In this document: piece after piece, positions 599 to 29,961 of the stretch
Layout of the letters: each line of letters opens with the position of its first letter
Position numbering within the stretch: position 1 is the first letter of the stretch
Virus record (IMG/VR): IMGVR_UViG_3300042356_000067
Span: 1-30,093 of that record
Source of the DNA: a virus
Direction: 5' to 3' (one strand)
Length of the DNA stretch: 30,093 nucleotides
The notes under the pieces: generated by a model
Seen by the model: the letters and a program-made list of their open reading frames with translations, nothing else
Told to the model about the DNA's origin: nothing
The model's database searches: none
Translations under genes and position numbers: made by a program

Positions 599-1009
599 TT
601 ATGAACTGACTGGTTCAACGGGCCAGTTAATTTCCCAAGGAAATCCTGATTGATCTGTGATGTCGCGCAGTGCTTGACAGTAGTCAATCCATTCTTGTGA
701 TGGTTGTTGGTCGCTGCGAAATTTCCAATCTGTAGCTGTTAAAAAACACAATCTTTGAGCCTTGACAACATTTGATTGAAATACTGCGCCTATTTCTTTT
801 GCAGCATCTAAGTCTGTTTGCACCACACCAAATTCTAGGGCGGTTTGTAAAGTCATAAAACCATGATTTGGATAATTAGCCCAAGTCAAGTCATAAACTT
901 GTTGCTCGCTTAAATCTTTCATTCCTGTAATTGTTCCCCATGTGTCTTGCAAATAACCCGCAGACAAAACTTTTTTTGTGTCTTTTTCAATGCAGTAATA
1001 AATTGTCAT
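599..1009 (-). CDS. Phage tail-fibre assembly chaperone (Phage_tail_APC-like)
   Basis: The 136-residue protein ends with the hallmark of the tail assembly chaperone family (PF16778 type): TDWKFRSDQ, then EWIDYCQALRDITDQ and GFPWEINWPVEP. In that family the C-terminal segment reads like 'TDW..lPD...w..YRQaLRDit...gfP..v.WP..P'. Such proteins assist folding or attachment of tail fibres and usually sit right after fibre genes, which fits its position at the end of the fibre cluster. The start overlaps the upstream stop by ATGA. The N-terminal 60 residues are not recognised. The substrate is probably one of the repeat proteins at 3.1-6.1 kb (inference). Confidence 0.8.
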   Translation of the reverse strand: MTIYYCIEKDTKKVLSAGYLQDTWGTITGMKDLSEQQVYDLTWANYPNHGFMTLQTALEFGVVQTDLDAAKEIGAVFQSNVVKAQRLCFLTATDWKFRSDQQPSQEWIDYCQALRDITDQSGFPWEINWPVEPVSS

Positions 1010-1743
1010 TTTTGATGCTCCAGAAGGTAAGTTTTACGATGGTGAAATAATTTTCGATATGCAGCCCGTACTCGCGTAGGAAAAGAAAAGTGATAAATAT
1101 CAAGGTCATTCTTTGTTGCTGAACCAGTTACAGCTTGCAGCGATTTTCGTTTGTATGGAATGACTTGAAGCAAAGGAGTTCCCGCTGGGATAAAAACTTC
1201 ACATTCTCGCAAAGGTGAAAAAATAAAATTCATAATATGAAAATTTTCATAATCGTTGATGCCACCATAAACATACAAGTCTTTTAAAAAAGGTGAATGG
1301 AAAGTTGCTGGTAAAACCATTGCTGACCAACCAGCGCGTGTTGTTACCATCCAAGGTGTATTTAATTTATGCACTTGCAATGTCATATCTTTTTCAATCG
1401 GTGCGATACCAGTCACAACTTTTGGATTCATTGGTTTTAATGGTTGAGTAAAAGACTTTTCCATTTTCGCAACAGTTCCAACTCGATTTGCTTTTATCCT
1501 AATGTCATCCCATGCGTTGATGATGTAACCGGCTTGCATAAGATCGTGCATACCGGGACAATTTTGAAACTTGTCATAACTGTTTTCGTATTTTCTTTGA
1601 TCAGACAACCAAGTTGGAGTAACTTCGCTTGCCAATTGAATCCTTGTAATTTTTGAAACTTGAGGAGCGCCCACATGAGGTCGAAATGTTATTTCGGGCG
1701 TAGCGCTAAACCAAGAGCGAATTTGAGCCATCATCTTGGGCAT
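1006..1743 (-). CDS. Conserved phage protein of unknown function, paralogue 2 of a tandem pair
   Basis: About 245 residues from the ATG at 1743. An upstream in-frame ATG at 1785 would overlap the preceding gene by 55 bases and is less likely. The protein aligns by eye with its neighbour at 1731-2450: an early W-containing segment (TPTWLSD against IPEWFKQ), a Cys-Pro-Gly-Met-His-Asp motif before M..GY, the shared PWMVTTRAGWSA motif, and a C-terminal AGTPLLQVIPYKRK. The last motif faintly resembles the conserved C-terminal strand of dCTP deaminase/dUTPase-fold proteins, but the catalytic residues of those enzymes are not evident, so no function is assigned. It sits between an oxygenase and a tail assembly chaperone, suggesting a virion or fibre-related role. 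Confidence 0.7.
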   Translation of the reverse strand: MPKMMAQIRSWFSATPEITFRPHVGAPQVSKITRIQLASEVTPTWLSDQRKYENSYDKFQNCPGMHDLMQAGYIINAWDDIRIKANRVGTVAKMEKSFTQPLKPMNPKVVTGIAPIEKDMTLQVHKLNTPWMVTTRAGWSAMVLPATFHSPFLKDLYVYGGINDYENFHIMNFIFSPLRECEVFIPAGTPLLQVIPYKRKSLQAVTGSATKNDLDIYHFSFPTRVRAAYRKLFHHRKTYLLEHQK

Positions 1744-2450
1744 CTCAATTCTTGGGTGTAATAATGACTTCTGCTGTCTTGGCAACGTCTTATCCTGTCA
1801 ATTTCTTTGCCATCAACATCGGTCATTTGACGAACAATGTGATCAATGTTTTGCCGTTTGATTGGTATTGCTGTCACCAAAGGAGTCCCAGCAACAAGGG
1901 TGTCATCAAAATTAGGCTTTAGCCATCTTGCGGGAAAGTTAACTTGTTTTGGATACTTGTCTGTATCAACTAGCCCACCCAAACAAATAAATCTATCCTC
2001 TTCGCTGTTAACTGGAGGTATAAATAAAGTTGACCAACCCGGGGAAGTCTTAACCACCCACGGGTTTATAAACTTTACTGGATCAGCTTTACCAAAAACT
2101 TCCGCATTACCTACTTGTTCTAAACTATGTCTTTCAACAGCCCTGTCAAAACTTGTTGATGTTGGACAAACTTCAATTCGTGATAGGTCGTGATTTGTTT
2201 TAATGTGCTGGCTAATAGCCAAAGGCATCGTAAATCCAATGGTCATTGCATCAATCATTGGCAAACATTTTTTTGCGTTCAATGAAGGTCTTGAATAAGC
2301 ATCCCTATTGGTTTTGCTAACCGGAGGAATTTGTTTGAACCATTCCGGTATGTTCTTACCAGCAGGGCATGGATTTGGTGCAACGCCAAAGTAACGCGCA
2401 TCACAAAAAAACTCAATGATTGGTGTTTTAAAGATTGAAATTAAGTTCAT
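1731..2450 (-). CDS. Conserved phage protein of unknown function, paralogue 1 of a tandem pair
   Basis: The 239-residue product contains NIPEWFKQIPPVSK (about residues 33-46), KKCLPMIDAMTIGFTMPL (about 60-77), NPWVVKTSPGWSTLFIPPVN (about 129-148) and AGTPLVTAIPIKR (about 187-199). The same blocks in the same order occur in the next gene (1006-1743), so the two arose by duplication. I recall similar proteins with a PW.vKT.pGyS..f..P core from uncultured aquatic phages, without a known function. The gene starts five bases after the stop of the 2OG oxygenase and is part of the same transcript. A beta-rich fold is likely from the composition (inference). Confidence 0.75.
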   Translation of the reverse strand: MNLISIFKTPIIEFFCDARYFGVAPNPCPAGKNIPEWFKQIPPVSKTNRDAYSRPSLNAKKCLPMIDAMTIGFTMPLAISQHIKTNHDLSRIEVCPTSTSFDRAVERHSLEQVGNAEVFGKADPVKFINPWVVKTSPGWSTLFIPPVNSEEDRFICLGGLVDTDKYPKQVNFPARWLKPNFDDTLVAGTPLVTAIPIKRQNIDHIVRQMTDVDGKEIDRIRRCQDSRSHYYTQELRCPR

Positions 2451-2455
2451 TGTTG

Positions 2456-3061
2456 TTACCTAAATTTTGGGCCAATAGCCCATGCAGTAAGTGTTAATCG
2501 TTCACCGGAGGTTACGGGAGAAACGCGATGCCCCATAAAAGCTGGAAAAACAATCAAATCCCCTTTGCGAATTTTGAAACTATGAGCTTTATTAGAATCC
2601 CCGTTTACATTCAAATTAAACTCACCCCCTTCGTATCCATCAGGGTCAACCAAACCAAGCACAAATGATAGTTTTCTATGTTCAGGCAAGTTTGGGCCTG
2701 AATCAAAATGCCAGTTGTAATGTCCATTTGTTTTGTATTTACCATATTGAAATGGTTGAAAATGGCTTAAATCAAATTGAAACTTATCGTGATTGATTTT
2801 CGCTGCAATGTTTGTCATTCGTTCATAAATCCATTGCGTGTCGGGATGTGGATGTATCCAAGTAATATCTGTTTCTCTAGTCTCTGCTAAAACTACTGAT
2901 CCTTCGCCCGAACCAATTTGACCTTTTTCGAACTCAGCTAATTCTCCAAAACTTATAACTTTGTTTAGTTCATCTTCGTTAAAACCATTTTGATAAACAA
3001 TGAAGCTGTCTAATGCAATGTGCATTTCTGGAATTCGATTCATGTCAGGAATTTTGTTCAT
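2456..3061 (-). CDS. 2OG-Fe(II) oxygenase, prolyl 4-hydroxylase type
   Basis: The 201-residue protein has the complete iron and co-substrate signature of the P4H/PKHD branch of 2-oxoglutarate dioxygenases: HxD in NWHFDSG (H118, D120), the GGEF turn (145-148) characteristic of P4H-like enzymes, the distal histidine in MGHRV (H178), and the 2OG-binding arginine in SGERLT (R188). These enzymes hydroxylate a side chain, classically proline in X-Pro-Gly, consuming O2 and 2-oxoglutarate. The gene begins two bases after the stop of a protein containing at least a dozen X-Pro-Gly sites (3064-4368), an obvious candidate substrate. Host EF-Tu, nucleic acid or another virion protein remain alternatives. 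The start is taken as the ATG at 3061; in-frame ATGs follow at residues 7 and 13, none with a strong ribosome site. Confidence 0.9.
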   Translation of the reverse strand: MNKIPDMNRIPEMHIALDSFIVYQNGFNEDELNKVISFGELAEFEKGQIGSGEGSVVLAETRETDITWIHPHPDTQWIYERMTNIAAKINHDKFQFDLSHFQPFQYGKYKTNGHYNWHFDSGPNLPEHRKLSFVLGLVDPDGYEGGEFNLNVNGDSNKAHSFKIRKGDLIVFPAFMGHRVSPVTSGERLTLTAWAIGPKFR

Positions 3062-3063
3062 GG

Positions 3064-4368
3064 CTAATTGTTTTGAATTAAGACATAACCACCGCTAGGG
3101 ACAGTGATAGGGGTTCCAGAATTGGAATACTCGACTACAACAGGCACATAACCAATGACAGGTGCTGATGAGTCACTGCTTCCACCGGGCAAAGTCACAC
3201 CCAACACCGAACTTGGTGGAGAGGGGTTGCCGGGGTAATATGGGTTGTAATTAGCATTTCCCGGAACATACGGGTTGTAATTATCATTACCCGGCACATA
3301 AGGATTTATATTAGCATTGCCCGGCACATATGGGTTGTAATTATCATTACCCGGCACATATGGATTTATATTGGCATTTCCCGGAACATACGGGTTATAG
3401 TTATCATTACCCGGAACATAAGGGTTTAAGTTAATATTTCCCGGAACATATGGATTATAAACAGCATTTCCGGGAGTGTAAGGATTATAGTAAGCATTAC
3501 CCGGAACATATGGATTGAAATTAGGGTTGCCGGGGAAATAAGTATTATAGTAAGGATTACCTGCAACGTAAGCATTATAATTAGGATTACCCGGAACGTA
3601 AGGGTTTGAATAAGTATTTCCCGGAGTGCTTGCATTATAATATGTGCCATAAACAACAAAATAAGTATATCCGGGAATGGTTGTATTATCTGAGTAAGTG
3701 GAAGATGGAAAAACACTTCCGGGGTATAAGTCTGTATATGCAGCAAGATAAGGTGAAAAATATTGATAAAGCGTTCCCACAGCATTACCGGGAGTTGATG
3801 GATTAGTTTCAGCATTGCCACCCGATCCGGGATTTGAACCAGATACATTCCCCCCTGATCCCGGATTATCACCAGCATAGTTTCCCCCTGAAGCCGGATT
3901 CATGCCAGAGTAATTACCGGGAGAGCCGGGGTTTTCACCAGCATAATTACCACCCGATCCCGGATTCGCACCAGCGTAATTTCCACCTGTTGTCGGATTT
4001 GTGCTGGCGTAATTTCCCCCGGTCACGGGGTTTGTGCTGGCAAAATTGCCTCCTGTTGCGGGATTTGTATTCGCGTAATTTCCACCTGTTACGGGATTTG
4101 TGTTCGCGTAATTTCCCCCTGTTGCTGGGTTTGTACTTGCGTAATTCCCGCCCGTTATAGGATTGGTACTTGCGTAATTCCCGCCCGTTACAGGGTTTGT
4201 GTTTGCGTAATTCCCCCCGCTTGCATAGTTTCCCGGTTGACCTCGACCTTGCAATAAAAAAGCCGTTCTGCCATATGGGGGATAATAAATTCCGGGTGCG
4301 TTAAACGTAACTGTTTGAAAAACTGTTGACAGGGTTTTCTGTCTTTGTAGGTTTTTTGCAAGCTTCAT
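3064..4368 (-). CDS. X-Pro-Gly/Asn-rich repeat virion protein (probable fibre or adhesin)
   Basis: The product has 434 residues from the ATG at 4368, which has a GAGG ribosome site overlapping the stop of the upstream gene; a longer frame to 4443 would overlap that gene and is rejected. A short head (TLSTVFQTVTFNAPG..YPPYG) looks like a beta-structured attachment segment. It is followed by about a dozen 11-residue repeats of the type GGNYANTNPVT, a linker of about 45 residues, and then 10-residue repeats of the type NPYVPGNDNY. The C-terminus (VPSGGYVLIQNN) is again beta-like. The second array holds 13 X-Pro-Gly-Asn sites (mostly V-P-G-N). It is not collagen: glycine is not every third residue. 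Its position between a repeat fibre and fibre-assembly genes supports a surface-exposed virion role. Direct evidence for function is lacking. Confidence 0.75.
   Translation of the reverse strand: MKLAKNLQRQKTLSTVFQTVTFNAPGIYYPPYGRTAFLLQGRGQPGNYASGGNYANTNPVTGGNYASTNPITGGNYASTNPATGGNYANTNPVTGGNYANTNPATGGNFASTNPVTGGNYASTNPTTGGNYAGANPGSGGNYAGENPGSPGNYSGMNPASGGNYAGDNPGSGGNVSGSNPGSGGNAETNPSTPGNAVGTLYQYFSPYLAAYTDLYPGSVFPSSTYSDNTTIPGYTYFVVYGTYYNASTPGNTYSNPYVPGNPNYNAYVAGNPYYNTYFPGNPNFNPYVPGNAYYNPYTPGNAVYNPYVPGNINLNPYVPGNDNYNPYVPGNANINPYVPGNDNYNPYVPGNANINPYVPGNDNYNPYVPGNANYNPYYPGNPSPPSSVLGVTLPGGSSDSSAPVIGYVPVVVEYSNSGTPITVPSGGYVLIQNN
3230..3628 (-). repeat. 30-bp coding tandem repeat (10-aa NPYVPGN-type units)
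   Basis: About 13 imperfect 30-bp units encode NPYVPGNxNY-type decapeptides. The units in the 3250-3400 region alternate two versions (VPGNDNY and VPGNANI), giving a 60-bp higher-order repeat of near-identical DNA. This suggests recent expansion by unequal recombination. One unit carries A in place of P (VAGN), showing tolerated divergence at the older end. Confidence 0.9.
3804..4231 (-). repeat. 33-bp coding tandem repeat (11-aa GGNYAxTNPxT units)
   Basis: Roughly a dozen 33-bp units encode GGNYA[N/S]TNP[V/I/A]T undecapeptides, degrading towards the 3' side into GGNYAGxNPGS and PGNYSGMNPAS variants. The third-codon differences between units are modest. Together with the 30-bp array in the same gene, this gives a protein built of two unrelated repeat lengths that share the G-N and N-P dipeptides. 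Confidence 0.9.
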
Positions 4369-4376
4369 TGTGTGCC

Positions 4377-6149
4377 TCAGAAGTTTGCGATGGACAATGT
4401 GCCGACATACTGTGTTCCCGCGTTTCGAGTAAAGAAAGTCCAAAGGTCTTGTTTATTTGCAGCAGTAGTTCTTGGAGGTAATTGACCACCCGCCCATGTT
4501 GCTGACGCAGGGAATGAAACGGCATAACCACCAGTGGCATCGTTGACAGTAATAATCGTGAATGAAGTTACATCTGTGCCAGAAGGTGCATTGATAAATG
4601 CCAGTGTTGTGTTTGCAGAAATCGTCACTACAAACGTATTCGCCAAAGATAAATCAATGTTGGTGGTTGCTGAATTTGCAGTGCTGCTTGAAACAAAGTC
4701 TTGATAAACTTTTGATTTTGTAAATTGCGGAGTTATTGTTCCTGAAATATTTACATCAACCGCAGCAATATTATTTGTAGAAAAATTCCCTGAACCATCA
4801 CGCAGAACAATTGTTGAAGCCGTGTTTGTAGTTGCAGCCGCAATCGTTGCGCTATTTGCTTGACTTGTAATTGTTCCAGCAGTCGTTGCAGTTGTTGCAT
4901 TGCCAGTCAAAGCTGCTGTAATGGTTCCAGCAAAAAAGTTACCAGAGCCATCCCGAGCAACAATGGTCGAGGCAGTATTTAAGTCGGTTGCAGTTGTGCT
5001 TGCATTGGCAACAGCTAATGTGCCTCCCAATGTAAGATTTCCCGTTGTTGATACCGAACCAGTTAGTGTTAAGCCGCTGACTGTTCCTGTCCCTCCAACA
5101 CTTGTGACAGTACCTGTGTTTGTTGTGTAGCCACTTGGATTGGATGAGGCATATGCCCCGAGGTTGGTTAATGCTTGTCCTGTTGTCGTTGCACCAGTAC
5201 CCCCTGAAGCCACAGAAAGGGTTGCTGATAAGCCTGACGCAGTGCCTGTTGTGTTTTGATTTAGTAGTGGAATGTCAGCCGCAACAATGCCTCTAAAAGT
5301 AGGTATGCCAGCACTTCCACTTGGTGCTGCAAGGATGTAATTTGCTGATTGTGATGAAAAATCAGATGCCGATACAGCAAGTGTTCCACCAAGGGTGAGG
5401 TTTCCAGTTGAGGTTACAGTTCCTGATAATGTTAAACCGTTGACTGTACCTATGCCAGCCACACTTGTGACAGTGCCTAAAGGATTTACAGCCCATGAGG
5501 TATCAGTGCCATCACTGGTCAAATATTTACCAGAATTACCTGACTGTGATGGAGCAATTGCATTAAATGCCGCATTAGCAGTTGTCTGGCCAGTTCCACC
5601 ATTTGCCAAAGGTAACGCAGTGCCACTGTAAGTTATGGCAAACGTCCCCGAACTTGTTATCGGACTTCCCGAGATAGATAGCAATGAAGGTACTGATAAA
5701 GCAACCGATGTGACTGTGCCTGTATTGCTTGTAAAGCCGCTTGGATTTGTTGCAGGGTAAGCACCCAATGAGGTCAGCGCATTAGCAGCACTTGTTGCGT
5801 TTGTCCCGCCATTGGCAATTGGAAGGATACCTGTGATGCCTGTTGTGAGAGGTAAGCCCGTTGCGTTTGTCAAAGTACCAGAGGAGGGTGTTCCTAACGC
5901 ACCACTTGGGGCAACATAATCAGTGCCAGCCGTTGCCGCGCTGAATGCCAAAGTCCCATTACCCTTGACAATACCTGTCAAAGTAGCAACACCAGAGCCA
6001 CCTTGAGGCACACTCAATGCAGTTGTTAATCCAGACAAAGATGTGATGTCGGAGTTAGCACCGGAGGCCGCTTGACCAGTTAATATGTCACCAGATTGCA
6101 ACTCTTGAACTTGAGTTCCATTGATGACTAAAGGATATCGAGCAGTCAT
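4377..6149 (-). CDS. Repeat-containing phage tail fibre protein
   Basis: The 590-residue protein is Thr/Ser/Gly rich and made of recurrent beta-type motifs: NGGTGQTTANAAFNAI, GGTGATTTGQALTNLGAY, SNPSGYTTNTGTVTSVGGTG and GLTLTGSVSTTGNLTLGGTL. This 'anGGTg.tta..a...lga' repeat family is typical of phage tail fibres and forms trimeric beta-structured shafts. The N-terminus (TARYPLVINGTQVQELQSGD) resembles the virion-attachment heads of such fibres. The last ~110 residues (from VYQDFVSSSTANSA) lack repeats and form a distinct beta-rich terminal domain, plausibly the receptor-contact tip. The ribosome site is GAGG seven bases before the ATG. The gene sits eight bases after a small virion-type gene and directly before the X-Pro-Gly repeat protein. 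Confidence 0.85.
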   Translation of the reverse strand: MTARYPLVINGTQVQELQSGDILTGQAASGANSDITSLSGLTTALSVPQGGSGVATLTGIVKGNGTLAFSAATAGTDYVAPSGALGTPSSGTLTNATGLPLTTGITGILPIANGGTNATSAANALTSLGAYPATNPSGFTSNTGTVTSVALSVPSLLSISGSPITSSGTFAITYSGTALPLANGGTGQTTANAAFNAIAPSQSGNSGKYLTSDGTDTSWAVNPLGTVTSVAGIGTVNGLTLSGTVTSTGNLTLGGTLAVSASDFSSQSANYILAAPSGSAGIPTFRGIVAADIPLLNQNTTGTASGLSATLSVASGGTGATTTGQALTNLGAYASSNPSGYTTNTGTVTSVGGTGTVSGLTLTGSVSTTGNLTLGGTLAVANASTTATDLNTASTIVARDGSGNFFAGTITAALTGNATTATTAGTITSQANSATIAAATTNTASTIVLRDGSGNFSTNNIAAVDVNISGTITPQFTKSKVYQDFVSSSTANSATTNIDLSLANTFVVTISANTTLAFINAPSGTDVTSFTIITVNDATGGYAVSFPASATWAGGQLPPRTTAANKQDLWTFFTRNAGTQYVGTLSIANF

Positions 6150-7495: not shown

Positions 7496-10400
7496 TTAAC
7501 CTTTCAACTTTGCTTCTAATGATTCAACTTTTTCTGATAACTCTTGAATCGCTTTTGTCAGTACAGCGATATAAGATGGGTAGTGAATCGTTTTAAACCC
7601 TTTCTCATCGCCTACTTTCCAATTTGGTTCGTGATATACAAGCGATGAACCCAAGTCGATAATCTCTGCAACTTCGTCAGCAATAAATCCATAGCCTTTT
7701 TGATGCTTAGGGTCTGCTTTGAGTTTGTAAGAAACAGGACGTAGTTGGTTGACAAATGCCAAGCCTAAATCGGAATCGGCTATTTCTTCTTTTAAACGTA
7801 TATCAGATGGACTAGATGTTTGAACTTCAATAGTTACAATATTTCCTGTGCCTGATGTTCCAACATAAGCACCAACAATTCCTGTGGATGTACCGCCTAA
7901 GATATTCAAGCCCGACCCACCAGCATTTGCAGTTCCTGAATTGGTTGCAAAAATCCTAGCCCAAGATGCTGGGCTATAACCTCCCAAGGCATTTGAATCA
8001 CTTGCAGTGCTTCCGGTCAACATAAAAGCACTTGCTGCGTTTCCCTGCAAAAAGTTAGCGTTTAAATTTGTAACTTGTGCGTTAGAAGTAATTTGCAAAG
8101 TACCCTGACAATTTATTGCATTGCCTGATGAAGCGTAAGCAATAAGGGCCGTTCCTGTGCTGCCTGTTGCTTGTATGCCCGGGCCATTGCCCAAGTTGTC
8201 CCCAACAATTGCAGCAGTAGCACTAAAGGTACTTGTGTTCTGTGCGTAAATTGTTCTAGCGTTACCTGTGTAAAAAGTAGCTACAGACGCATTAGCAGTG
8301 TTGTTTGCATAAATACAGGCATAGCTTGCAGAACTATAAATGTACTGGCTAACAGAATAGCCGCCAATGACATTGCCAGTTCCGGTTAAAGACAGTTGGC
8401 CTGTAGTAATTAAATCACCATTAAATGATCCTGAAGCCGCAGAAAGTGAACCACTAAATGTTCCTGTTGCCGCTGATAACGAACCACCAAAAGTTCCTGT
8501 CGCTGCGCTAAGAGAACCACTAAATGTTCCTGTTGCCGCTGATAATGAACCCGCAAAAGTTCCAGTTGCACCACTTAATGAACCAGAAAAAGAACCACTT
8601 GCTCCAGTTATATCGCCTCTAAAAATACCATTATTAAAAAAGCAGTTGCCAGTTGTTCTGCTTATGTAATAACCAGCAGTTCCATATGTGCCTGTATTTC
8701 CATATGTGGGAGGAGTGCTTCCATTCCAATTGTCAGAACGAATGTCTTGAAATATGCTTGCTGCAACTGGCCCTGTCCAAGCAGTTGTGTTTGCAGCGAC
8801 TCCATCAATTGTTATTGCAGAACTATTGTATTTGCCTTGGATATACCAAAGCACCTGTCCAACACTAACAACTGGAGCAATCAATGACCAACCGCTTGGA
8901 GCAGCAGAAGCACTGGTTGGGGTTGTAAATGCTGGGGCTGCCAATGACTGACTTTGTTGCAAATAAGCAGTGATCGATGCTAATCCAGTTGCTCCAGTTC
9001 CACCATTCTGAAAACTAATAACTGGACTTGACCAAGTGAGAGTTGTGTCTGTGCCAGTAGTGCCAGAGATCGATGCAACAGATCGAGAAATATAAACTGG
9101 ATCAGTTCCAGAAGGGACAGTGGCCGACCATGTAGATGGTGGAGTCAGTATGTTAGTGGAGAAGTCAAAACTGCCACCAGTCGGAGTGGCTGGAGCAGAT
9201 GCTGATCTTAAAAAAACTGAAACTTCAGCCACAGACAATCCATCTGTGCCATCTTGACCTTCTACTAAAATCGGAGTTTGCCAAGTGTAGTTTGTGCCTG
9301 TGCCAGTGTTTGTGCCAACAGCAGACCACAAAGGATCAGCAGATGCTGGCACAGAGTTGACGTCAGAATACCAACCAGCAGGGGTTCCAGCAGATGCACT
9401 AGGAGTTGCTGGTTGACTTGCTGACCTTTTAAAAACAATATCTACAGAGTCGCCACTTGCACCAACAGCACCATTTTGAAAACTAATCGTTGGGCTTGAC
9501 CAAGTGAGTGTTGTGTCAGTGCCTGTCGTTCCAGAAACTGATGCAACAGCCCTTGAAATATAAACAGGGTCTGTTCCAGAAGGCACACTAGCCGACCAAC
9601 TTGATGGTGATGTCAGTGTGTTTGTTGTAAAGTTAAAGCTGCCGCCAGTAGGTGTTGCTGGTGCGCTCGCTGATCTTAAAAAAACTGAAACTTCAGCTAC
9701 AGACAATCCATCTGTGCCATTTGTGCCATTTGTGCCATTTGTGCCATTTGTGCCATTTGTGCCATCTTGACCCTCAACTAAAATTGGAGTTTGCCAAGTG
9801 TAATTTGTACCTGTGCCAGTGTTTGTGCCAACAGAAGACCACAAAGAATCAGAAGATGCAGGGACAGAGTTGACATCTGTATACCAGCCAGCAGGGGTTC
9901 CAACTGATGGGCTTGGAATTGTTGGTTGACTTGCTGACCTTTTGAAAACAATGTCAACCGAATCACCGCTTGCCCCATTCGTGCCGTTAGTGCCGTTAGT
10001 GCCGTTAGTGCCGTTAGTGCCGTTAGCACCATTTTCAAAACTAATTGTTGGAGTTGACCAAGTGAGGGATGAATCAGTCCCTGTGGTTCCAGAAACTGAT
10101 GCAACAGCCCTTGAAATATAAACAGGATTTGTTCCAACAGGAACACTAATCGACCAAGATGCTGGTGCAGTCAATGTGTTGGTTGTAAAGTTAAAACTGC
10201 CACCACTAGGTGTTGCTGGTGCGCTTGCTGATCTTAAAAACACTGAAACTTCAGCAACCGATAATCCGTCATTTCCGTTTGCACCATTTTGACCCTCAAT
10301 CTGGAGAGGTGTCTGCCAAGTGTAGTTTGTACCTGATCCAGAGTTTGTTCCTACCGATGACCAAATTGGGTCAGACGATGCAGGGACAGTGCCGACATCT

Positions 10401-12541
10401 GAATACCAACCACTAGGAGTTCCAATCGATGGGCTTGGAATTGTTGGTTGACTTGCTGACCGCTTAAAAACAATATCAATTGAGTCACCACTTGCACCAG
10501 CAGAATCGGTGGTTGCACTTGCCACACTTGAAAAGCCAGAAACATTGCGAGAAAAATCAACGGCCTTCAGCCAATAATATTTGGTTGTCGAATCAGTCAA
10601 ACCAGATCGAGCAATTGTAGAACTAGAAACCTCACCAATTTTTGTGGCAGTCGCTGAATTGTTTGAGGTGTTTTCCCAAATCTCGTTATAAAACCAGTCA
10701 GCAGCAGATGGATTTGTCCAAGACAACTGAATGGTTTTAAAAGAACCAACAGCAGTCAAACTTGTCGGAGCAGCAGGGGCAGTCGTATCACCAGACAATG
10801 TGTGATTGATATTTGATGAGAATGGGCCTTCTTTGTCAGAGAAAATTGCTCTCACTCGGAGGTTATAAACAAGCGCAACCTCTTGTTGACCAGCATAGTC
10901 ATAAACATTTTGAGAGGTAAAAATTGACTGCCAAACAGTGTCAGTGCTGAGTTTGAATTGCAACTCATATCCTGTCACATAAGCCGATGCAACCGCTGTC
11001 CAAGTCACATGGACTGCTGGCAATATTGTTCCATCTGGAAAAGTAATGTTCTGATTTGTCGCAGTTAATCCAGTCGGTGCGATCTGAGTTTGAATCAGCG
11101 TCAGGCTTGTGTTTGGTGCGCCATCGATAGCGTCAGAGGTCAACCAGTCATAAGCAGTTGAGTCTTCCTCTTTAAGAACCAGATCAACTCCGATGTCCTC
11201 ATTCAGCTTCCACTCCATCACCCTGAAATATTTACCAGACCATCCCAATTGAGCAATGGTCAAGGCAACAACATCGCCAGCAGTAATGTTTAAACAAGTT
11301 GGCTTGCATGAAATATTGACGACAATGCCTTGCCTAGACTTTAAGAGATTGATCTTTGCAAGTCTCTCAGCTTCCAATATATTTGTGGTGAAGTTTAGAT
11401 CGAGTTGAGCAGTTAACTCTTCACCGCCATCCTCAGCCTTGTAAGCGTTTGAGGCAATGGCTGGATATTCTGTCGCTGAATAAAGTTTGTCTGCGTCAGC
11501 AAACACACCAATCACTCGGTTGAAAAGATTGGCTTTTTCATTAGCGCATGACAACTGGACATCGCCTCGCAAATCATCCACAGTTATTGTCTGGACAGAA
11601 TTTGAAAATGCACCCACGACTAATTTATATTTGCCAGAGGAATAAATAAGCATTCCCGCGCAAGTCGAGAGCATATCTTGCAAGACTTCCCGAGGACTCT
11701 TTGAAGTGTCAACCACACCATTTAATGTGTAGCGTTTCTGAGTGACAGCAGTTTTGGCAGTGACTGTCTCATCACAGATATTTGCAGCAGCAATGAATGA
11801 GGCTGAGTCGATCTCATCCGATGTGACCCGCATCCCATAGTCGGACATGATGTAATCGCGGATACAAAGGGCAGGGTTGTCAGACCAAGCCGTTGTTGTC
11901 GTTCTTGGGTCATAAACTAACTTACCCTTAACCAAAGCCCTGACTGTTGGAATGCTTGTGAATATCGAGGTGTCATACTGCATCCGCACATAAACTGAGG
12001 AAATTCCAGTCAGTTTGTGACTCGATGTCCATTTGTTTGTGATGCCAGCAGTCTCAGTGACAAGATCAGCATAAGCAGTGCCACCAGTCAAAGAGTTTTG
12101 AATTCTTGCCTTGCCTGAATAGCGACCAGAGGAGACACTGCCAGAGACAGTTCCAAGGTCTTCATCCCCAAAATAGACTTTTTCAATTGAGTGGATTTGG
12201 TGATCTGCTAATCCAAAAACAGTGTGCAAATATTCGTTTGTATTTCCTGTGGTGGCAGCGTAGAACATCACGCCACCCACTAGGCTTTGACCATATATCA
12301 GTTGCCTTGGGGCTGTAGATGATCTGACATTGATTGTCTGACCCTTTAGTTCATTGGCAGTGCTGCCACCAATCAAACCAATGTTTTGAGCCACTTTTGT
12401 CGTAACAATAAAAGAGCCAGCATATATTGCAGCCCTCAAAAAAGTCACAGAGATTCCACTATTGGCAAGGCCAATAATGAATGTACTTGTTACTTGAGCC
12501 GCTAACCACTCAGCCCCTAGATAGACAACTAATTCAGGCAT
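7496..12541 (-). CDS. Tail hub / host-specificity protein J-like, with C-terminal S74 chaperone domain
   Basis: The 1681-residue protein carries, in order: a hydrophobic N-terminus (about 15-55), a gpJ-type core with VRSSTAPRQLIYGQ near 72-85 and a tail-protein III region (LCIRDYIMSDYGMRVTSDEI, about 215-330), fibronectin-III-like modules (about 490-680), three tandem adhesion modules (each with GDSVDIVFKRSASQP, WYSDV, EGQ and LSVAEVSVFLRSASAP motifs) joined by Gly-Thr-Asn collagen-like linkers, a run of GSLSAATGTF decapeptides, and a peptidase S74 intramolecular chaperone. The S74 dyad is visible as SDIRLK (S1579, K1584); autocleavage before S1579 would release about 103 residues ending in a coiled coil. 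In lambda-like phages gpJ forms the tail tip and binds the receptor. It follows the K-like gene directly. Confidence 0.93.
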   Translation of the reverse strand: MPELVVYLGAEWLAAQVTSTFIIGLANSGISVTFLRAAIYAGSFIVTTKVAQNIGLIGGSTANELKGQTINVRSSTAPRQLIYGQSLVGGVMFYAATTGNTNEYLHTVFGLADHQIHSIEKVYFGDEDLGTVSGSVSSGRYSGKARIQNSLTGGTAYADLVTETAGITNKWTSSHKLTGISSVYVRMQYDTSIFTSIPTVRALVKGKLVYDPRTTTTAWSDNPALCIRDYIMSDYGMRVTSDEIDSASFIAAANICDETVTAKTAVTQKRYTLNGVVDTSKSPREVLQDMLSTCAGMLIYSSGKYKLVVGAFSNSVQTITVDDLRGDVQLSCANEKANLFNRVIGVFADADKLYSATEYPAIASNAYKAEDGGEELTAQLDLNFTTNILEAERLAKINLLKSRQGIVVNISCKPTCLNITAGDVVALTIAQLGWSGKYFRVMEWKLNEDIGVDLVLKEEDSTAYDWLTSDAIDGAPNTSLTLIQTQIAPTGLTATNQNITFPDGTILPAVHVTWTAVASAYVTGYELQFKLSTDTVWQSIFTSQNVYDYAGQQEVALVYNLRVRAIFSDKEGPFSSNINHTLSGDTTAPAAPTSLTAVGSFKTIQLSWTNPSAADWFYNEIWENTSNNSATATKIGEVSSSTIARSGLTDSTTKYYWLKAVDFSRNVSGFSSVASATTDSAGASGDSIDIVFKRSASQPTIPSPSIGTPSGWYSDVGTVPASSDPIWSSVGTNSGSGTNYTWQTPLQIEGQNGANGNDGLSVAEVSVFLRSASAPATPSGGSFNFTTNTLTAPASWSISVPVGTNPVYISRAVASVSGTTGTDSSLTWSTPTISFENGANGTNGTNGTNGTNGTNGASGDSVDIVFKRSASQPTIPSPSVGTPAGWYTDVNSVPASSDSLWSSVGTNTGTGTNYTWQTPILVEGQDGTNGTNGTNGTNGTNGTDGLSVAEVSVFLRSASAPATPTGGSFNFTTNTLTSPSSWSASVPSGTDPVYISRAVASVSGTTGTDTTLTWSSPTISFQNGAVGASGDSVDIVFKRSASQPATPSASAGTPAGWYSDVNSVPASADPLWSAVGTNTGTGTNYTWQTPILVEGQDGTDGLSVAEVSVFLRSASAPATPTGGSFDFSTNILTPPSTWSATVPSGTDPVYISRSVASISGTTGTDTTLTWSSPVISFQNGGTGATGLASITAYLQQSQSLAAPAFTTPTSASAAPSGWSLIAPVVSVGQVLWYIQGKYNSSAITIDGVAANTTAWTGPVAASIFQDIRSDNWNGSTPPTYGNTGTYGTAGYYISRTTGNCFFNNGIFRGDITGASGSFSGSLSGATGTFAGSLSAATGTFSGSLSAATGTFGGSLSAATGTFSGSLSAASGSFNGDLITTGQLSLTGTGNVIGGYSVSQYIYSSASYACIYANNTANASVATFYTGNARTIYAQNTSTFSATAAIVGDNLGNGPGIQATGSTGTALIAYASSGNAINCQGTLQITSNAQVTNLNANFLQGNAASAFMLTGSTASDSNALGGYSPASWARIFATNSGTANAGGSGLNILGGTSTGIVGAYVGTSGTGNIVTIEVQTSSPSDIRLKEEIADSDLGLAFVNQLRPVSYKLKADPKHQKGYGFIADEVAEIIDLGSSLVYHEPNWKVGDEKGFKTIHYPSYIAVLTKAIQELSEKVESLEAKLKG
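9713..9766 (-). repeat. 9-bp tandem repeat encoding Gly-Thr-Asn triplets (array 1)
   Basis: Six copies of a 9-bp unit (plus-strand GTGCCATTT) encode successive NGT triplets in the linker after EGQDG of the second adhesion module. Copies are identical except at the last. In-frame gain or loss by slippage would change linker length without breaking the gene. Confidence 0.95.
9981..10025 (-). repeat. 9-bp tandem repeat encoding Gly-Thr-Asn triplets (array 2)
   Basis: Five copies of a different 9-bp unit (plus-strand GTGCCGTTA) encode the same NGT triplet in the linker before GASGDSVDIV. It uses AAC/ACT where array 1 uses AAT/ACA. The amino-acid repeats are therefore the same but the DNA repeats expanded independently. 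Confidence 0.95.
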
Positions 12542-29286: not shown

Positions 29287-29961
29287 ATGACCACCCAAAA
29301 TCGAAAGTTTGTCGCGTATTACAGGCTGTTTGCAAAGGTGAAAACCTCCAACAGCTTGGCTTCGCAAAAGCAAACAGTTGATAAGTTTCTGGTTGAGAAC
29401 AAAGCAGTTCTGGTTGCTGACTACACAGAGAACGAAACCAAGTTTGCCAAGACTCGCCCAGCCCTTGCAGAGGCCATAGCAGTCTGCAAAAAGAAAAAGG
29501 CCAAGCTCCTGATCGCCACCCTAGATAAGCTCAGTACAGATGCAGCTTTCACAGAGGTCTTGCTTAAAGACACCAAGGCTGAATTTGTCTGCGCAGACTT
29601 CCCAGCAGCCACCCGTGAGATGCTGGTCATGCGACAAGTATTTCAGGAATGGCAAAACAAGAGAATTGGTGAAAAGACCAAGCTTGCACTGGCCAAGATC
29701 AAAAAGGAAGGCAAGATAAAACTTGGTTCACCAAGGCCAGAGATTGGCTCTAAAGCTGGCAATGCAGTCAACTCTGCTAAGGCTCAAAGTTTTGCAGAGA
29801 GAGTGGCTCCAACTGTAAAAGCGATCCTCAAAAAGAATCGCAATGCTTACACCCTCAGAGAGATCGGTGCAGTTTTCACAGCCGAGGGGCTAACTACGCC
29901 AAGGGGCAACCTTGAGTGGAGTCCAACTCAAGTCAAGCACTTGCTGTCGAGGATTAAATAA
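29287..29961 (+). CDS. Serine-recombinase homologue, catalytically dead (putative DNA-binding regulator)
   Basis: The 224-residue protein aligns along its length with resolvase/invertase-type recombinases (FVAYYR, then TRPALAEAI, AKLLIATLDKLSTDAAF, ALAKIKKEGKIKLGSP, and a C-terminal domain with LREIGAVFTAEGLTTPRG and a final WSPTQVKHLLSRI). However, the nucleophile serine of the YxRVS motif is phenylalanine (YYRLF, F15), and the two catalytic arginines of DRLSRD are K81 and T84 (DKLSTD). Strand exchange therefore seems impossible. The DNA-binding tail is kept, so a role as a repressor, architectural or partition-like protein is likely (inference). Its stop codon lies in the first of three 32-bp direct repeats that could be its binding sites. 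It is the only plus-strand gene. Confidence 0.88.
   Translation: MTTQNRKFVAYYRLFAKVKTSNSLASQKQTVDKFLVENKAVLVADYTENETKFAKTRPALAEAIAVCKKKKAKLLIATLDKLSTDAAFTEVLLKDTKAEFVCADFPAATREMLVMRQVFQEWQNKRIGEKTKLALAKIKKEGKIKLGSPRPEIGSKAGNAVNSAKAQSFAERVAPTVKAILKKNRNAYTLREIGAVFTAEGLTTPRGNLEWSPTQVKHLLSRIK

Follow-up and report, generated by a model that had tools for sequence, protein, structure and literature searches.

A phage cassette that places a putative prolyl hydroxylase directly behind an exchangeable tandem-repeat fibre: a likely fibre-modification operon

Mimivirus encodes a collagen and L230, a lysyl hydroxylase/glycosyltransferase, and so resembles the locus described here in that the virus appears to supply a repeat fibre together with the enzymes for its hydroxylation and glycosylation, but it differs in that lysine rather than proline is modified, by another enzyme family and in a eukaryotic giant virus. 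Among phages, S16 gp38 is a Gly-rich tail-fibre adhesin with polyglycine II domains, and adhesins of this type share with the architecture predicted below a small beta scaffold with long Gly-rich loops at the fibre tip. Unlike those adhesins, the repeats here are rich in Pro and Asn and are paired with a hydroxylase, and the fibre gave no sequence or fold match to them in Pfam, Foldseek or VIA. In the Skp1 pathway of Dictyostelium and Toxoplasma (PhyA and Gnt1), a cytoplasmic PHD-type P4H acts first and a GT60 enzyme then places GlcNAc on the hydroxyproline (PMC6939170). The viral P4H of PBCV-1 acts on peptides in a sequence-specific manner; no hydroxyproline was found in PBCV-1 virions despite the enzyme (PMC7019647), and the virus is not known to have a fibre operon comparable to the phage cassette. 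In viruses of the Baltic water column few “auxiliary metabolic genes” are more frequent than P4H genes, P4HA being present in 62% of stations, and the same study considered that their use by viruses “remains cryptic” (PMC9301287).

The window, by which we mean the whole 30,093-base IMG/VR virus record analysed here, comes from an aquatic bacteriophage and carries a siphophage structural module on its minus strand. Comparison of portal proteins places it closest, among isolates, to small Roseobacter phages such as CRP-406 (57% identity, 29 kb), which have ordinary fibres and no cassette like the one described below. The cassette lies downstream of the central fibre J gene and a tail-fibre-like gene and upstream of a fibre-assembly gene, as follows.

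Minus strand: structural module genes (terminase, portal, major head, tail terminator, major tail, tape measure, distal tail and central fibre J)
4377..6149, minus strand: tail fibre-like protein directly upstream of the cassette (phrog_9017, phrog_7760, phrog_11393, tail fibre)
3064..4368, minus strand: tandem-repeat fibre protein, the proposed P4H substrate, 434 amino acids, ATG 4368 being the most plausible start
4219..4341, minus strand: conserved N-terminal end of the fibre, residues 10-50, 'TFNAPGIYYPPYGRTAFLLQGRG' (family alignment; confident beta strands in the AF2 model; dN/dS 0.07)
3784..4218, minus strand: 11-residue tandem array of the GGNYANTNPVT type, GN spacing 11
3226..3630, minus strand: 10-residue tandem array of the NPYVPGNxNY type with 13 X-Pro-Gly-Asn sites, GN spacing 10
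3067..3213, minus strand: conserved C-terminal end of the fibre, residues 386-434, 'VLGVTLPGG...TVPSGGYVLIQNN' (family alignments; pLDDT ~90)
2456..3061, minus strand: P4H/PHD-like 2OG-Fe(II) oxygenase, 201 amino acids (PF13640 8.4e-16, above cut-off; phrog_61 2e-40)
1731..2450, minus strand: DUF6065 type 1 (phrog_7084), with a predicted dUTPase fold (PF19541 4e-8, above cut-off; phrog_7084 2e-41)
1006..1785, minus strand: DUF6065 type 2, a phrog_7084 paralogue (3e-28) with a probable start at ATG 1743, overlapping the type 1 gene
599..1009, minus strand: tail-fibre assembly chaperone-like gene, next in the operon (PF16778 1.2e-12; tail fibre assembly PHROGs)

A sequence-only reading of this DNA had described an oxygenase with a complete P4H-type active site two bases after a gene for an X-Pro-Gly repeat protein. 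Both observations stand: two bases separate the oxygenase ATG at 3061 from the end of the repeat gene's stop at 3064, and Y109, H118, D120, H178 and R188 are all present. We scanned IMG/VR with the oxygenase, took the best 80 loci of 237 matches and, after dereplication, retained as a core set the 46 homologues scoring at least 224 bits against the P4H profile. All five residues are invariant in 46/46 of these, and the HxD...H iron triad of the PF13640 domain (H118, D120, H178) is also kept in 16/16 outer homologues. Collagen, algal and chlorovirus-type P4Hs bind the C5-carboxylate of 2-oxoglutarate through a Lys, whereas position 188 is Arg in all 46, as in PHD/PiuC-type enzymes and in the alignment with PiuC. 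The closest solved structures by profile were PiuC-type (PKHD), followed by PPHD, PBCV-1 (5c5t) and algal P4Hs. Because PiuC-type structures are the nearest by sequence, proline is not proved as the target, and we describe the enzyme as a member of the P4H/PHD superfamily of 2OG-Fe(II) oxygenases and a putative prolyl hydroxylase. In a contig whose oxygenase is 85% identical (L004), the pairing and the reading frames are conserved, and dN/dS was ~0.11 for the P4H; the DUF6065 genes gave 0.06-0.12 and the two ends of the repeat protein 0.07. Given these values and the invariant active sites, the P4H and DUF6065 genes are under strong purifying selection.

The repeat protein contains 16 PGN sites, whereas 2000 composition shuffles averaged 1.5 and never exceeded 7. 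Thirteen of them belong to the C-terminal array, where the 10-residue period is exact, and NP occurs 28 times overall, in agreement with the 13 X-Pro-Gly-Asn sites and many N-P sites noted earlier; that reading had passed over the N-terminal half of the protein, a second array with GGN in place of PGN. With periods of 10 and 11, the window repeat lacks uninterrupted Gly-X-Y triplets and is not collagen-like by that measure. True GXY partners do occur in a sister clade, and the description of the system as one for a non-collagen repeat consequently fits the window but not the family. What members of the family have in common is their ends, FNAPG..xPYGxxxxxVxGxGxxG at the N-terminus and LGVTxPG...VxVPxGGYVxI at the C-terminus, with the middle swapped wholesale between many phages. 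Its classes comprise PGN decamers, NGPQNFNAPT decamers, TNYNxAYPxANQPEASRP, NPPNPGSYTPG, Tyr-rich, GGN and collagen-like GXY triplets. Because the AF2 model of the window fibre is confident only at its strand-forming ends (residues ~10-50 and 376-434, pLDDT ~90) and falls below 50 in the repeat, the architecture is likely that of a small beta domain bearing a long exchangeable repeat. The repeat protein had no usable fold match in Foldseek or VIA, and matches to CsoS2_M (E 0.008) and to E. coli phage AVIO78A were rejected as low-complexity.

Applying to upstream genes the criterion that N+G+P+Y+T exceed 45% of residues, we found a repeat fibre directly upstream of the P4H in 43 of the 46 dereplicated core homologues drawn from the best 80 of 237 IMG/VR matches; in the other three a DUF6065 gene intervenes. 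The 16 more distant homologues, among them the enzymes of cyanophage GC 412 and pelagiphage HTVC023P, have no repeat-fibre gene directly upstream. The cyanophage 2OG-Fe(II) oxygenases (phrog_61, T4-like GC 412) are of the same family by profile and 32-41% identical, but they adjoin uvsW, hub or other genes. A reverse search, independent of the P4H and using the fibre C-terminal end alone as query, found 46 loci, and in 26/26 of those examined the P4H is next to the fibre, followed by two DUF6065 genes (in some, with a sulfotransferase first). In the sister clade, wherever 2 kb or more of sequence was available upstream of the P4H (8/8), a giant Gly/Pro repeat fibre and a DUF6065 gene precede it, and in an outer group a Gly-rich low-complexity ORF lies 0.9-4.5 kb upstream of 40/42 P4Hs. 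The linkage persists through complete change of the repeat and down to ~35% P4H identity. Neighbour labels are strongly clustered on the tree, with 7 changes against 30 in shuffles; the neighbourhood is inherited and the counts are accordingly not independent, so that 43/46 reflects a few inherited associations kept over long divergence rather than 43 separate events. The earlier reading had called the pairing dedicated and had proposed as its refutation a survey in which oxygenase genes lacking the repeat protein were as common as those accompanied by it. That survey has now been run from both directions, and the pairing survived.

One exception is found on the fibre side, in a contig (G006, locus L041) with two PGN paralogues, in tandem at 1969-3579 (minus strand), and no P4H or DUF6065 in its 85 kb. 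A tblastn search of 50,697 phage records found the cassette in no isolate, and a scan of bacterial genome contigs with DUF6065 returned a single contig with the cassette, from a Chitinophagaceae MAG (L200), which is probably a phage fragment. In the open-access literature we found no publication linking a phage P4H to fibre repeats. The earlier claim that no such case had been described needs qualifying, as single parts have precedents in the PBCV-1 P4H, the Skp1 pathway and the mimivirus collagen, but a phage operon in which a hydroxylase is dedicated to a fibre with an exchangeable repeat, with a GT60 or sulfotransferase in relatives, was not found described in that literature.

We favour, with reasonable confidence, a fibre-modification operon: the P4H would hydroxylate prolines of the fibre, and some lineages would add a sugar or sulfate. 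In this model, a late tail-module cassette would build and modify a tandem-repeat fibre or adhesin of the virion, the two conserved ends of which would pack into a small beta domain with the long Pro/Gly/Asn/Tyr repeat between them, and the oxygenase from the next gene would hydroxylate the repeat prolines using Fe(II) and 2-oxoglutarate. Related phages would then probably add GlcNAc to the hydroxyproline with a GT60-type enzyme, or sulfate with a sulfotransferase; the window phage would end at hydroxylation. Viral P4Hs would gain from this a specific candidate substrate, the product of the adjoining gene, together with a testable pathway. The recurrence of the fibre/P4H order in dozens of related phages, often with sugar or sulfate genes, suggests a purpose for the widespread viral prolyl hydroxylases.

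A GT60 gene (PF11397, E 1e-23 to 1e-28) stands at the end of 24 dereplicated cassettes, in most of which it overlaps DUF6065-2 by 4 bases, and a PF03567-type sulfotransferase lies between the P4H and DUF6065 in three other dereplicated lineages; the two were never found together among the dereplicated cassettes. The window phage (G000) and its relatives G001 and G003 gave no match to either. These enzymes of the relatives, like the DUF6065 pair, were absent from the earlier reading. The acceptor of the Trypanosoma cruzi polypeptide GlcNAc-transferase is Thr. That enzyme also belongs to GT60, so the phage GlcNAc could go on Thr, while the GT60 enzyme Gnt1 adds GlcNAc to the hydroxyproline of Skp1 in dependence on the prolyl hydroxylase PhyA (PMC6939170). 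The presence of both P4H and GT60 families in related cassettes is the likeness to the Skp1 pathway; the differences are that the proposed phage substrate is the virus's own many-site repeat fibre rather than one Pro of a ubiquitin-ligase subunit, and that the window phage has no GT60. In the clade with collagen-like partners, a conserved run of small enzymes and a CxxCxxC protein lie downstream of the P4H (L135 984-4699; L072 7226-9880, minus strand); some of the enzymes resemble 2OG oxygenases by eye, and the run possibly represents further modification genes. In the same clade a small conserved protein of ~100 aa, glutaredoxin-like by eye, is found near the fibre and DUF6065 (L072 10112-10417, minus strand; L125 7681-8031), and the L072 copy has no Pfam match.

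The proline content and placement of the partner fibres bear indirectly on the target residue. Pro makes up a median of 12.4% (minimum 6.1%) of the 43 partners compared with a median of 4.2% in other ORFs. In the nine collagen-like partners, 348 prolines are at the Y position before Gly and 49 at X (61 and 1 in L124), whereas the counts for non-partner collagen-like tail proteins of these loci are 10 (Y) and 1172 (X). The shift is visible within single genomes: the L130 partner has 3 at X and 8 at Y against 49 and 50 at X, and 1 each at Y, in its two other collagen-like proteins, and the corresponding X/Y counts in L122 are 3/8 and 51/1. The Y position is the site of animal collagen P4H action. 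A crude rule that counts any collagen-like fibre within 2.2 kb upstream of the P4H as partner gives 12/17 (P = 2e-5), because it catches five neighbouring central fibres as well; restricting it to the fibre immediately before the P4H/DUF6065 pair gives 12/12, a definition chosen after the data were seen. The earlier suggestion that X-Pro-Gly is the general target did not hold, as 9/43 partners have less than 15% of their prolines before Gly and some (L114-L121, L174-L179) are almost without PG; either the site preference varies with the partner or the rule is broader. Candidate P4H substrate peptides include NPYVPGNANY, NGPQNFNAPT and TNYNVAYPIANQP.

It is conceivable, though we think it unlikely, that the oxygenase targets another repeat residue, such as Asn, with the Pro richness merely reflecting an extended PPII/PGII-like structure. 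Asn ranks first or second in abundance among the residues of many partners (median 14.2%), NP/GN sites are as numerous as PG sites in the window repeat, and the sequence of a PiuC/PHD-like enzyme does not reveal its specificity. However, Asn drops to 3.4% in one partner while Pro never falls below 6%, Pro is shifted to the pre-Gly position specifically in the collagen-like partners, and GT60 has a known hydroxyproline acceptor.

Both DUF6065 proteins match the family profile (PF19541/phrog_7084). The AF2 model of type 1 (pLDDT 88.6, 37 sequences) matches dUTPases in all 50 best Foldseek and VIA rows, the best VIA match having Z 10.4 over 119 residues at 3.0 A, and we predict a dUTPase (beta-clip) fold of the trimeric type for DUF6065. 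No Pfam dUTPase match was obtained at E 0.01, and a search of open-access papers found none that mentions DUF6065. A motif-III-like 'GLVDTDKY' with an invariant Asp162 is kept in both paralogues, whereas by eye motif IV looks altered and a Gly-rich motif V was not seen. The idea that DUF6065 is another 2OG oxygenase or a cupin was rejected on the fold prediction. Relatives occur in ~50 haloarchaeal tailed viruses, and in the two examined it adjoins fibre genes, close to a Gly-rich putative adhesin, with the PF13640 oxygenase absent from both genomes.

L142 7905-8738: DUF6065 homologue of halovirus HRTV-24
L143 7905-8789: DUF6065 homologue of halovirus HF1

The dUTPase fold could also be taken to mean that the oxygenase and DUF6065 work on a target in the host or on a small molecule, in auxiliary metabolism or the nucleotide pool, with the tail region merely accepting cargo genes. 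The PiuC-like oxygenase sequence would suit such a role, as would the cyanophage homologues beside uvsW or the baseplate hub, and the usual annotation places these enzymes among auxiliary metabolic genes (PHROG category; PMC9301287). We give this explanation only a slim chance, as it is difficult to reconcile with the near-perfect immediate adjacency that searches from either gene revealed in diverged phages, the genes overlapping or almost touching, or with the different placement of proline in partner and non-partner collagens. That the repeat is a self-sufficient PGII/PPII fibre, its enzymes recruited once and now decaying passengers, would accommodate the enzyme-free PGN fibres of G006 and the oxygenase-free haloviruses, but is very improbable in view of active sites invariant in 46/46 and dN/dS of 0.06-0.12.

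Within the favoured fibre-modification operon, the two DUF6065 proteins, probably trimeric, may aid the folding or assembly of the fibre. We tentatively prefer this putative role to one in the chemistry because DUF6065 follows a Gly/Pro-rich fibre even where there is no hydroxylase. A bolder proposal, plausible although we would not yet rely on it, is that aquatic phages subject their own virions to a Skp1-like pathway, the P4H hydroxylating tens of repeat-fibre prolines, GT60 capping them with GlcNAc (or a sulfotransferase sulfating the fibre) and the dUTPase-fold pair serving as a dedicated assembly factor, in a bacterial-virus counterpart of collagen or extensin manufacture. If the fibre-modification reading is true, hydroxyproline, possibly glycosylated or sulfated, would commonly form part of the tails of environmental phages, and this would bear on fibre stability, on receptor binding and on the reading of “metabolic” genes in viromes.

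Several further features of these genomes deserve mention. In Pelagibacter phage HTVC023P (L138 5947-10897), the annotation lists three 2OG-Fe(II) oxygenases near a tail gene, along with a 'putative ferrochelatase'. The central fibre J of the window (7496-12541, minus strand) has a proline-free NGTNGTNGTNG-type collagen-like stretch and a C-terminal Peptidase_S74 auto-chaperone. The sole well-supported plus-strand gene of the window, at 29287-29961, is serine recombinase/DNA-invertase-like (PF00239 2.5e-11, phrog_125), and its product might invert part of the genome, for example the fibre genes.
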